Shown here: positions 9,952 through 24,013 of the stretch, piece by piece
How the letters are laid out: every line of letters begins with the position of its first letter
Numbering within the stretch: the first letter of the stretch is position 1
Origin: Planctomycetota bacterium
GTDB taxonomy: Bacteria > Planctomycetota > Planctomycetia > Pirellulales > Pirellulaceae
Length of the DNA: 24,013 nt
Reading direction: 5' to 3'
Assembly (NCBI GenBank): GCA_024277285.1
Contig: JAJRVM010000358.1
Span: 1-24,013 of the forward strand
Program-made: the position numbers and the translations under genes
The notes under the pieces: model-generated
What the model saw: the letters and a program-made list of their open reading frames with translations, nothing else
The model's database searches: none
Told to the model about the DNA's origin: nothing

Positions 9952-10252
9952 TGTGTATCGGGCGCACCACGATGCGGTGGATGGCATTCCAGCCGCTGGT
10001 GACCGCTGCCCGACGCTAATCCCGAAGAGCCCTCCACCGGGCTTGTCCCGGTCGGAGGCACGACTGGTCAGCTACCAACACAACGCGCCCATGATCTTTG
10101 CGGCGCTCGAACTACGCAACCGTTCCAGTGGCCCAATCGCACCCACATCACGAACGTGTTGTGCCAGCCTCTCCAGCGCGTTCTAATGGCAGGCATCGTG
10201 AACGCGCGCTACCGCCCGCTGCCAAGACGCACCTCTCGCTGGAGATTACACG
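9952..10252. other. 301-bp spacer with one dispersed repeat copy
   Basis: The only structure seen is the REP-like element at 10012-10077. The last 12 bases carry GGAG (10241-10244), the ribosome binding site of the following peptidase gene. Confidence 0.5.
10012..10077 (+). repeat. Dispersed palindromic (REP-like) element, copy 2
   Basis: The element starts GACGCTAATCCCG and ends CACGACTGGTCAGCTACCA, with the central foldback CCTCCACCGGG-CTTGT-CCCGGTCGGAGG. It is closest to copy 1 (148-214) at both ends and to copy 3 (18199-18260, opposite strand) in the stem. Confidence 0.8.
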
Positions 10253-15719: not shown

Positions 15720-15980
15720 GGGGTCAAACCCTGTTCACTGTTTATGCGTGTCGGTCGAGCGGCTAGAAACCGGCTAGCCGGTTCGCACTGCGTGCAGTGA
15801 GCGACGGTGTGATGGTTGAGCGGTTGGTAGTGCGAGATCGATCGAGGTGTAGAACGCGTTCGAGCATGCAGTGGCACCAACATTCCGTACGTTTTCTGAT
15901 TCCAAATACCCCACAAAGCCGCAAGCCGATGCCAACACGCAAACGCCAAGTTGAGCAGTGCGAAGTGTCAATCGAGCTGC
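15720..15980 (+). repeat. Composite intergenic repeat, copy B (permuted order)
   Basis: Block 1 at 15720-15762, block 3 at 15766-15877 and block 2 at 15882-15980 match the blocks of copy A (2050-2431), but blocks 2 and 3 are swapped. The perfect palindrome AACCGGCTAGCCGGTT is at 15768-15783. Confidence 0.8.
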
Positions 15981-17891: not shown

Positions 17892-18467
17892 TCGCATTCC
17901 CACCGACACCGTCTGCAAATGTCAAGCTCGCTCCAACTGATGTGGTAGCTCCTTCCACCTTGCACGATCCCACGTGCCGCGGCGCGATGCCACGAGCGCG
18001 ATCCGATCGTCGTTTTTTGGCAACCGTTCACACTGGTTCAAGCCATTACGCACTCGTCATGGTGACTGAACAGCCACTGCCCAGATCGCATGGCGAATAC
18101 CCCCAGCTGAAAGAAACTCCGTCCTGACTCGGTCTCACCAAAGCGGCGATTGATGGGGAACCTAGCGTTCGACCGACGGAAGAATAAGAGCGTGTTGCTG
18201 TAGCTGACCAGTCGTGCCTCCACCCGGGACAAGCCCGGAGGAGGGCCCTGCATGAGCGTCTCTCAGCGTGGATTAGCGGCCCCCTTCGTGGCTGCGATGC
18301 TCGCATCCGCATTCTCGTGAACGGCTACCTATCTTGGAATAATGTAGTTCATTCAAGCCTGCATCCGAATCATCACTCGACGGATGACGTGTGCCGGATT
18401 GACCTTGTCGGTATCGATGGCGGCAGTCCCGACCGCGCCGCAGGGAACGTGCAGCGGTTCAGGAAAT
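17892..18467. other. 576-bp spacer between convergent genes, one repeat copy
   Basis: The genes on either side point toward each other. The only structure seen is the REP-like element copy 3 at 18199-18260. No clear intrinsic terminator was found for either gene. Confidence 0.5.
18199..18260 (-). repeat. Dispersed palindromic (REP-like) element, copy 3
   Basis: On the - strand it starts GACGCTCATGCAGGGCCCTC and ends CACGACTGGTCAGCTACA, with the foldback CCTCCGGGC-TTGT-CCCGGGTGGAGG. It matches copies at 148-214 and 10012-10077. Confidence 0.8.
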
Positions 18468-22079: not shown

Positions 22080-22370
22080 GTTCATCTCTCTCCGTTCGTT
22101 CTCATGAGGAATCAGTGGGGACAACAATTTCCGCGCCCGTACGCTCGACGTCAATCCGCGTTGCGAGACAAACAACACTCGGCAGAACATCCATCGGGCC
22201 GACTCGCACGAAAATCGACTGACGCTCATGGGGAGGGAAGGAAGCGGCAACAAAGGAAGGAACGTAAGCTGGGACGTCCGCTTTTGAACGTCTGCTTGAT
22301 TTTACCAAGAAAAAGCCGCGATGTACAACGCGACTGACAAACAGCCGATATCGCGTTTCCCATAAGAAAA
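22080..22370. other. Leader and spacer upstream of the oxidoreductase
   Basis: Carries the ribosome binding site of the oxidoreductase (GGAGAGAG at 22093-22086 on the - strand). No gene, repeat or clear promoter was recognised. Confidence 0.4.
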
Positions 22371-22403
22371 GGCCCGCCAGGCGAGACTGCCTGCGGGCCT
22401 TTC
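22371..22403 (-). terminator. Intrinsic terminator of the HMA lipoprotein gene
   Basis: The arms GGCCCGCCAGGC (22371-22382) and GCCTGCGGGCC (22389-22399) pair with one bulged C and a 6-nt loop. On the - strand the hairpin is followed by TTTTCTTA. It lies about 45 nt past the gene's final TAG, not close to the internal UGA, which supports the whole frame being transcribed as one unit. Confidence 0.88.
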
Positions 22404-22425: not shown

Positions 22426-22455
22426 TGGAACTACAGAATCTGAAACTACAGAATC
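22426..22455 (-). repeat. 15-bp tandem duplication across the HMA gene stop codon
   Basis: On the - strand GATTCTGTAGTTTCA (22455-22441) is followed by GATTCTGTAGTTCCA (22440-22426), 14 of 15 identical. Both keep the frame Ile-Leu-stop, as in the duplication at the gdhA end. Confidence 0.85.
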
Positions 22456-22901
22456 GTGTATTCTGCCAGGTGTTCATTCGTCGCAGCCAACTCCTTGAGC
22501 TTGGCCTTGTAGTCGAGATCTGGTTTTGTGACCTTGAACGAACATGTGCGATCAGACGTGTTGGTCTCGATATCGGCGATACCGTCAACACTTGCCAATG
22601 CGCCTCGGACCGAGGCGGCACAACCCCCTCACGTCATGTTCGGGACTTTAAGACTCACCAGCGTGGAATTTCCCGTGGCCGGTGGCGTCTCGGTCGAATC
22701 GGTCGAATCGGTAGCCGTCGTGGCCATTCCTGAAGCGTCCGGAGTGGGTACACTCGGACTCGCCGCATCCGAACTCGTAGCGGACACGTCGTTGGCCTTC
22801 GCGTCAGTCGCGTTCGTGTCGTCGGCCTTCTTCTCGCCAGCACAGCCGACGCAGCTCAGCGCCAACCCAAGAGCCAGCAACAGATGCATGCCTCTCTTCA
22901 T
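22446..22901 (-). CDS. Exported HMA-domain lipoprotein, candidate selenoprotein (in-frame UGA)
   Basis: ATG 22901 has GAGGAG 7 nt upstream. Residues 1-20 form a lipoprotein-like signal (MKRGMHLLLALGLALSCVGC, acceptor Cys20 or Cys17). Residues 21-80 are an Asp/Thr/Ser/Ala-rich linker. Residues about 82-151 are a heavy-metal-associated (HMA) domain as in MerP, CopZ and P-type ATPases. UGA at 22631-22629 is codon 91 and sits exactly on the first Cys of the MTCxxC metal site: KVPNMT-U-GGCAASVRGAL. Sixty in-frame codons follow (VDGIADIETNTSDRTCSFKV onward) to TAG at 22448-22446, so the full product would be 151 aa. A hairpin just 3' of the UGA looks like a bacterial SECIS. If Sec is inserted, the site is U-x-x-C, suited to soft-metal binding or redox. 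Otherwise the gene is a nonsense mutant or the base is misread. The gene is monocistronic, with its own terminator. Confidence 0.8.
22599..22631 (-). promoter_or_regulatory. Candidate SECIS element with its UGA codon
   Basis: On the - strand the order is UGA (22631-22629), 12 nt, then GCCUCGGUCCGAGGC (22616-22602): stem GCCUC/GAGGC closed around GGUCC, with a further UGC/GCA pairing below across a bulged C. From the UGA to the loop is about 17 nt. In E. coli fdhF the minimal SelB-binding hairpin starts 11 nt after the UGA and has GGUC in its loop, so both spacing and loop agree. I judged the fold by eye. Confidence 0.65.
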
Positions 22902-23030
22902 AATAGTCTCCTCGCAATCATACATTCGGAACAGGTACACAAAACCAGTACCCTATTTTAGCCCCACCAAGGAAATTGACCACTTGAAGACCACAGAAAT
23001 CAGCAAGAAACCTCGTCCCTCCCCCCCCCC
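22902..23030. other. Leader of the HMA gene and a C/G homopolymer tract
   Basis: Contains the GAGGAG ribosome binding site. TAAAAT on the - strand near 22955 could be a -10 box but has no clear -35 box at normal spacing. A run of ten C (23021-23030) directly follows the A7 tract of the next terminator. Confidence 0.4.
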
Positions 23031-23090: not shown

Positions 23091-23113
23091 GAACGATTCG
23101 TTAAGAATCGTTC
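23091..23113. repeat. Perfect inverted repeat around the stop codon of the cysteine-rich gene
   Basis: GAACGATTC (23091-23099) and GAATCGTTC (23105-23113) flank GTTAA, which contains the TAA stop read on the - strand. The main terminator is 26 nt further downstream. Confidence 0.75.
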
Positions 23114-24013
23114 GATGTCTGCGTCGATGCCTCGTTGGACGTCTCTTTCGTGTCGCTCGATGCCTGCAGCAAGGCCACGACAGCCGCCTTGTACTTGGCC
23201 CGAGCCAGGCTCAATCGAGCCGTTACGTCGCATGCGGTCTTTTCATCACCGACCACGAACAGCTTGACGTCGCCAGAGTCCTTGGCCAGCTTCTCGGCCT
23301 CGATAGGACAGTTGCACGATTTCTCGCCAACCATGTAGCTCATGTGAACTTTCCCCATCGCCGCGCTCGCAACTTTGGCCATCTCGGCGGCCGTCGATTC
23401 GCAGTGAGCTTTCTGGCCAGCCACCGTGATCGTACCACTTTTGCTGCATACTTTCGGCTTGGCAAATGCTGCCACAAATTGCTCGGTCGCGTCCGCCAAT
23501 GCTCGCTTCGCTTCCGTCTCCTTGTCGAAACGCTTGTCGCCAACGACGTACTGGACCGCGGCACTCGATTCTTCCGCCAGCTTGCTCGCCGTCTTCGGGC
23601 AGTTCGTCTTGTCCGTGCCAACAGCATACGTCATTTGCGGCAACTTCTTCATGGCTGCTGTAATCGGGCAGTCCTTGCGGTCGCCGTTCTTCGCACCGGG
23701 ACATTTGCCTTTCGCACAGCTCTTGCCATCGTCTTTGCTGGTGTTCTTGGTCGTATCTTTCGCGGAAGGACAACCCTTGCAAGCAGCCTTGTCACCATGC
23801 GGGCAGGTTGCGCACTTCGCGTCCTTTTCGCCACTGCACTTGCCACCGGCACACGCCTTCGCACCCTCTTTGCCTTCGCAGCACTTGCCGTCCTTACCTT
23901 CACAGCATTTACCGTCTACATCCTTGCTGGTGTTCTTGGTCGTATCTTTCGCGGAAGGACAACCCTTGCAAGCAGCCTTGTCACCATGCGGGCAGGTTGC
24001 GCACTTCGCGTCC
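23101..24013 (-). CDS. Cysteine-rich repeat protein with duplicated C-terminal domain (5' end outside window)
   Basis: The frame is open from the window edge to TAA at 23103-23101; 303 codons are visible and the start lies beyond 24013. The first part is a hydrophilic Lys/Gly/Cys-rich region with about 17 cysteines in CxxC and CC clusters (DAKCATCPHGDKAACKGCPS, GKCCEGK twice, ACAGGKCSG). A 63-residue unit is repeated: the visible 90 bp at 23924-24013 are identical to 23735-23824. The second part has two related modules of about 60 residues: MTYAVGTDKTNCPKTASKLA then VVGD, and MSYMVGEKSCNCPIEAEKLA then FVVGD, each closing with an Ala-rich helix. No known family is recognised. The cysteine clusters suggest metal or thiol chemistry, and the neighbour is a metal-binding-domain protein, but a shared role is inference. 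Cellular location cannot be judged without the N terminus. Confidence 0.85.
   Translation of the reverse strand, partial: DAKCATCPHGDKAACKGCPSAKDTTKNTSKDVDGKCCEGKDGKCCEGKEGAKACAGGKCSGEKDAKCATCPHGDKAACKGCPSAKDTTKNTSKDDGKSCAKGKCPGAKNGDRKDCPITAAMKKLPQMTYAVGTDKTNCPKTASKLAEESSAAVQYVVGDKRFDKETEAKRALADATEQFVAAFAKPKVCSKSGTITVAGQKAHCESTAAEMAKVASAAMGKVHMSYMVGEKSCNCPIEAEKLAKDSGDVKLFVVGDEKTACDVTARLSLARAKYKAAVVALLQASSDTKETSNEASTQTSNDS
23735..24013 (-). repeat. Perfect 90-bp direct repeat with 189-bp period
   Basis: Positions 23735-23824 and 23924-24013 are identical. The period is 63 codons, so the reading frame is kept. The second copy is cut by the window end, so its full length and copy number are unknown. 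Confidence 0.92.

Follow-up and report, generated by a model that had tools for sequence, protein, structure and literature searches.

A candidate exported selenoprotein of planctomycetes with a UGA codon in the metal-binding loop of an HMA domain

In the stretch of planctomycete DNA analyzed here (hereafter the window, 24,013 nucleotides in length), a gene on the minus strand carries an in-frame UGA at codon 91 that is almost certainly decoded as selenocysteine. This reading, which the initial annotation had put forward, is borne out by the finding of TGA at the same codon in all 15 of the best related loci, by the association of this form with tRNA-Sec, and by a SECIS-like hairpin with compensatory changes. 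Decoding of the UGA, conservation of the hairpin, and the fold of the domain are, in fact, all supported by our computational results. With regard to the product, we favor, at a probability of roughly 60%, an exported, lipid-anchored selenoprotein in which selenocysteine is inserted at codon 91 by means of the hairpin and the HMA domain binds a soft metal. According to this model, when the ribosome reaches the UGA, the downstream hairpin would recruit SelB with its Sec-tRNA, and selenocysteine would be inserted in place of termination. The product would be exported and lipidated, presumably at Cys20, and a linker of about 60 residues would keep the HMA domain, of the MerP/CopZ fold, outside of the cytoplasm, where Sec91 and Cys94 (U-x-x-C), possibly along with Cys120, would bind a soft thiophilic metal, for example Cu(I), Hg(II), or Ag(I), which would then be buffered or handed on. 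The parts of this model that we infer are export, metal binding, and the identity of the metal.

The gene and its HMA domain

The features of the gene are listed below, with the origin of each assignment in brackets.

22446..22901, minus strand: proposed selenoprotein gene encoding a 151-amino acid HMA lipoprotein, from ATG at 22901 to TAG at 22448-22446 (translation with TGA as U)
22908..22912, minus strand: AGGAG, ribosome-binding-like, 6 nt 5' of the ATG (sequence)
22842..22901, minus strand: predicted signal peptide with lipobox (alignment; the lipoprotein reading comes from the motif)
22631-22629, minus strand: in-frame UGA, codon 91, at the position of the first metal-site Cys, NMT-U-GGC (translation)
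22620..22622, minus strand: Cys94, putative second metal-site cysteine of U-x-x-C (invariant, 16/16)
22601..22617, minus strand: bSECIS-like hairpin, CGCCUCG-GUC-CGAGGCG, loop G 18 nt past the UGA (covariation and synonymous-shuffle test)
22497..22652, minus strand: HMA domain, residues 84-135 (Pfam)
22449-22664, minus strand: part modeled with confidence by AlphaFold2, from about residue 80 to residue 151 (model)
22542..22544, minus strand: Cys120, third cysteine, in strand beta-3 (invariant, 16/16)
22366..22402, minus strand: terminator-like hairpin 3' of the gene, GC-rich with a T run (sequence)

The initial annotation, which did not give the strand, had described a single in-frame UGA at codon 91 within the motif MT-U-GGC. 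Translation of 22901..22446 on the minus strand confirmed that the 151-amino acid frame has one internal TGA, followed by 60 more codons and then TAG. The HMA domain, the rest of which had been placed between the UGA and this TAG, was also recovered, as the Pfam HMA model (PF00403) matches above its cut-off when Cys is put in the place of Sec (39.6 bits against 24.8, E 7.1e-10), and the terminator-like hairpin is present, a consensus hairpin scan having picked up only a 5-pair portion of it (22385-22373). In the alignment of the window protein with 15 homologues (L001-L015, for a total of 16 sequences), Gly19-Cys20 is invariant (16/16), and Cys20 is likely the lipidated residue, based on its place in the lipobox.

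In the AlphaFold2 model, the domain forms a block with a pLDDT of 95-98 and the beta-alpha-beta-beta-alpha-beta order of HMA domains, the last strand of which consists of just two residues according to DSSP. A Foldseek search returned mostly HMA structures: MerP (1osd) was the top match, with HMA domains of copper chaperones and ATPases coming next. When relatives of solved structure are ranked by sequence, copper ATPases are at the top and MerP is sixth. HMA domains are often found in the metal-transporting ATPase family. Of 72 Sec domains, 58 have a cysteine in the third-Cys region (beta-3), as do 3 of 6 Cys domains, and human Atox1 likewise has a Cys at this position. Because of the HMA fold, the matches to MerP and copper-chaperone structures, and this third cysteine, metal binding at U-x-x-C outside of the cytoplasm appears the likeliest role for this protein; the ligand would be a soft metal, bound in the periplasm by Sec-x-x-Cys, as homology suggests.

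The main alternative, which we consider less likely though by no means negligible, is that the same selenoprotein uses U-x-x-C as a selenol/thiol redox center, for example as a reductase or isomerase of exported proteins, and not as a metal ligand. Selenoproteins are mostly thought to have redox functions, and the UxxC motif is of a redox kind (PMC13188914); moreover, the third cysteine, seen in the majority of Sec domains, could resolve such a center. The predicted fold, however, is that of an HMA and not a thioredoxin-like domain, and the motif is located at the HMA metal loop. Quite improbable, in our opinion, is that the UGA acts as a switch that yields a full HMA protein when selenium is available and a truncated lipoprotein of 90 amino acids when it is not, both with a role. 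Because the signal peptide and linker upstream of the UGA are complete, truncation would still yield an exported lipopeptide; the linker, however, is variable in both length and sequence, whereas the part past the UGA is conserved.

The UGA site and the selenocysteine machinery among relatives

A search with the single protein found two relatives, and an alignment-based search gave 125, the best 120 of which were considered. Of the 55 database records examined from these 120, the last 21 of which were picked for their likeness to N-terminal pieces, 34 stop exactly one residue before the UGA site (ending in NMT or NMH); these were viewed as protein only, with the exception of P0063, which has the sequence of locus L006. 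Four of the 55 begin at most two codons past the site, several (such as P0003 and P0007) have C at the site, and seven (P0002, P0006, P0008-P0011, and P0021) have W.

A scan of genome contigs, from which the best 80 of 156 relatives were taken, provided the codons themselves. The top 15 are loci L001-L015, and the remaining 65 are weaker (E >= 4e-11). Thirteen of the 15 are on contigs titled as planctomycetes and two (L001 and L004) on contigs titled 'bacterium', from genomes in the same family group as that of L003. Each of the 15 has TGA at the codon that aligns with residue 91, with the conserved domain beyond it and a normal stop. Past the UGA, 41 of 43 pairs gave a dN/dS ratio below 0.3; the pairs were hand-chosen within 11 groups of relatives, are not independent, and include several dS values close to saturation. 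We then searched the 241 genomes of the family to which the L003 genome belongs, which is probably the Pirellulaceae judging from the locus titles. Using the 16-sequence alignment, 75 of them were matched (E<=1e-6); 55 of these have a TGA inside at least one match, and 20 have TGA-free matches only. The loci examined comprised 60 fetched stretches in addition to 30 earlier loci, with the weak TGA-free matches of G083, G084, G097, G102, and G113 left out. Among 83 domains with E<1e-8, the site codon is TGA in 77, TGC in five, and TGT in one, a count that omits the five of 99 domain rows lacking the motif, namely the TGA member L152 and four spurious second hits. The initial annotation had held that orthologues with either TGA or a Cys codon (TGC or TGT) at this site, and conserved sequence downstream, would support its proposal, and this is how the relatives turned out.

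That the TGA is a sequencing error, or that a Cys codon turned to TGA in a decaying pseudogene, would take a single base in a single genome, and L152 indeed looks damaged, with an Arg at the second Cys and an in-frame TAG; at the level of the family, however, the recurrence of TGA in the 15 best loci and in 55 of the 75 matched genomes, together with selection downstream of it, refutes this explanation, to which we give next to no weight. A comparably negligible chance goes to the UGA being read as tryptophan without selenium, either through a variant code or near-cognate read-through. In its favor are the seven database records with W at the site, which, judging from the protein records alone, were probably obtained by translating UGA under code 4. 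Against it, TGA ends four of 12 other open reading frames examined in the window, glutamate dehydrogenase among them, no TGG is seen at the site in any of the 99 domain rows, and the TGA form tracks tRNA-Sec. The tryptophan reading was rejected on the site-codon count and the TGA stops in the window.

In a phylum-wide sample, the family was found in five of 392 genomes at E<=1e-8, three of which have a TGA inside, so that it seems mainly confined to the group of L003. A tree built on 74 columns required five changes between Sec and Cys, compared to 5.9 for shuffled labels, and hence says little about switching between the two, its one informative point being that the Cys form L122 falls inside a supported cluster of Sec forms.

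The machinery for selenocysteine insertion was present in the genomes of the best loci. A tRNA-Sec was found in 15 of 15 (66.9-77.4 bits, with a gathering score of 47), as were SelA and SelD above cut-off, and SelB was above cut-off in 13; of the remaining two, G009 carries a fragment of the gene, and in G006 no match passed the cut-off. More broadly, tRNA-Sec was detected (E<=1e-9) in 113 of the 241 family genomes and in three of 14 control genomes. It was carried by 52 of the 55 genomes with the TGA form as opposed to two of the 20 whose matches all lack a TGA (Fisher p 2e-12), and the association of tRNA-Sec with the TGA form also holds against all 186 genomes without this form, 61 of which carry it (Fisher p 2e-17), both tests being uncorrected for the kinship of the genomes. 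The value of two in 20 does not represent a clean Cys control, as 16 of these genomes have weak, distant HMA matches and no tRNA-Sec, and two (G031 and G058) of the four with strong matches (G017, G018, G031, and G058) do carry tRNA-Sec. The other two, G017 and G018, lack both tRNA-Sec and selD but do encode a SelA-family protein. The three TGA-form genomes in which tRNA-Sec was not found are 3.5-4.8 Mb in size, and have selA (G035), selD (G144), or selD and a partial selA (G134). Based on glutamate dehydrogenase, whose gene lies about 2 kb away in the window, the closest genome is G131 (79% identity), in which neither tRNA-Sec nor a match to the family was found; of the next six (67-69%), all have tRNA-Sec, and two (G005 and G052) have the family. 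As a separate observation, a SelD gene with one in-frame TGA inside the match is present in each of G001, G002, G005, G006, G007, and G134.

A SECIS-like hairpin past the UGA

The hairpin past the UGA, with its 7-bp stem and GUC loop, falls within the limits published for bacterial SECIS elements (PMC13188914), which are a loop of 3-9 nt, an upper stem of 4-16 bp, a G among the first two nucleotides of the loop, a distance of 16-37 nt from the UGA, and an MFE of at most -7.5. The MFE in the window is -14.6 kcal/mol, a value that is no better than that of dinucleotide shuffles of this stretch, and a scan of the window with Rfam gave nothing at the gathering score.

Among 66 distinct sequences, six of the seven pairs had changed on both sides; at pair 18-28, for example, UA is seen in 26, CG in 24, GC in four, and AU in two, with 10 unpaired. 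Doubly changed cells numbered 48, compared to a mean of 11.5 in shuffles, and 75.8% of cells were paired, compared to 37-46% when the hairpin was slid along the sequence; none of 500 shuffles reached the observed paired cells, doubly changed cells, or covariation score. The count of doubly changed cells is not decisive on its own, because sliding the hairpin by -1 brings it to 50, with as many pair types, but with only 46.3% of cells paired.

Three tests, tried in this order, compared TGA with Cys sites. Plain MFE over the 36 nt past the site did not separate them (mean z -0.70 for 71 TGA sites and -0.83 for 17 Cys sites). With the position of the loop fixed, stems of at least six pairs were found at 45 of 73 TGA sites and at none of 17 Cys sites, and p<=0.05 was reached by just 17 of the 73 TGA sites, with a p of 0.185 for the window. 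When synonymous codons were shuffled, p<=0.05 was obtained at 55 of 73 TGA sites and at none of the 17 Cys sites, with a p of 0.032 for the window, in a broader test that looked for a GU in the loop at 15-37 nt from the UGA and was defined after the sequences had been seen.

Related proteins, surroundings and implications

Single-domain lipoproteins such as that of the window are one of several architectures recognized by translation and Pfam. In L113, L128, and L148, a YceI domain is fused to the HMA domain, both over the Pfam cut-off, and by eye a YceI-like part is followed by a C-terminal Sec-HMA in L114, L118, L141, L153, L154, L156, and L157. A helical-looking N-terminal part resembling CpxP/Spy is seen in L112, L125, L139, and L150, a name that is a guess, as L125 alone matches Pfam LTXXQ, and under the cut-off. 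In L111 (2034-3383, plus strand), a single lipoprotein frame of 450 codons holds four HMA domains with a UGA in each, and each UGA has its own SECIS-like hairpin, of a separate type in which the loop G lies 23 nt past the UGA. We also noticed lipoproteins in which two UGAs lie at a distance of four codons (L115, L116, L117, and L165; MHUGFSU and similar); in these, Ser takes the place of the second Cys of CxxC and is followed directly by a UGA, and the forms of L115-L117 do not fit the hairpin model. L158 and L162 carry a variant TUGVGC (UxxxC), which seems to correspond, with Sec in place of Cys, to the TCPSGC lipoproteins of other genomes. None of 10 scanned proteins of these architectures reached an NCBIfam cut-off; L111 came nearest, its domains together scoring 79.7 bits with the MerP model (cut-off 92.55).

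The presence of Sec in a protein of HMA type is, as a kind, already known, based on entries in the 2026 inventory, on a Sec MerP row, and on two NCBIfam models named for selenoproteins. The window protein itself scores far under every cut-off in NCBIfam 20.0. It shares with MerP (TIGR02052), CopZ, and PF00403 the fold and the position of the metal loop, but its first metal-site residue is Sec and it is a predicted lipoprotein with a long linker; its score with the MerP model is 31.4 bits (cut-off 92.55), and it is far below the cut-offs of the CopZ models too. The family of the UxxU metal-binding (seleno)protein NF041115 likewise has an HMA-like domain, with two Sec residues in UxxU whereas the motif here is UxxC, and its model gave 24.3 bits (cut-off 95). 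The MerT/CopZ fusion-like heavy metal transport selenoprotein NF045683 has, as here, a CopZ-like part in a selenoprotein, but this is fused to a MerT-like part that the window protein lacks; it gave 20.9 bits (cut-off 375), with profile positions 161-207 of 235 alone matched. A Sec form of 'Mercuric transport protein MerP', alike by name, was listed in the Global Ocean Sampling data with two sequences, no Cys homologues counted, and no motif given in the available text (PMC2398784). The 2026 inventory reports Sec in a MerT-like protein, in a UxxU metal-binding protein, and in a cation ATPase that shares UxxC with the window protein but is a membrane ATPase and not a small lipoprotein; neither PF00403 nor planctomycetes is mentioned in the text of this source as available (PMC13188914). 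Planctomycete selenoproteins are known as such, those of two planctomycetes having been described (PMC4807772). For the family of the window protein, the fusions, and the four-UGA form, no published description was found in the literature searched, including the available text of PMC9312934, PMC12013277, and PMC1794560, with the supplementary tables of PMC4807772 lying outside of this search.

The gene neighborhood, analyzed at 16 loci with antisense frames of the gene set aside, gave no guide to function. The sole neighbor cluster present in more than five loci, which from its sequence we take to be sulfatase-like, occurs in eight, at varying places; the remaining shared clusters are found in two or five loci each. 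In the window, the selenoprotein gene adjoins that of a Cys-rich protein (23101-24013, minus strand) that runs off the window end, in which a 93-nt repeat is present in two copies, 99% identical, encoding KCATCPHGDKAACKGCPSAKD; this protein has no Pfam match. Elsewhere in the window, a repeat occurs in two places (2244-2431 and 15766-15980) as pieces of 112 nt (84%) and 71 nt (85%), and a second repeat lies at 147-214 and 10011-10077, and inverted at 18200-18249.

Taken as a group, the single, YceI-fused, CpxP-like-fused, double-UGA, and four-Sec forms might represent a periplasmic metal-handling layer of the Pirellulaceae built on one Sec-HMA module, in which selenolates, and not thiolates, would buffer soft metals, a view that we offer tentatively. 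The family has remained largely hidden in databases, 34 of the 55 records examined ending one residue short of the UGA site. The four-UGA protein of L111 would exceed the '2-3 Sec residues' given for the small multi-Sec subset in the 2026 inventory (PMC13188914). Related genomes, some with the Cys form and others with the Sec form, offer pairs for comparison, and, if selenium is indeed the metal ligand, these proteins would represent a natural test of the replacement of sulfur with selenium in a possibly non-catalytic job.
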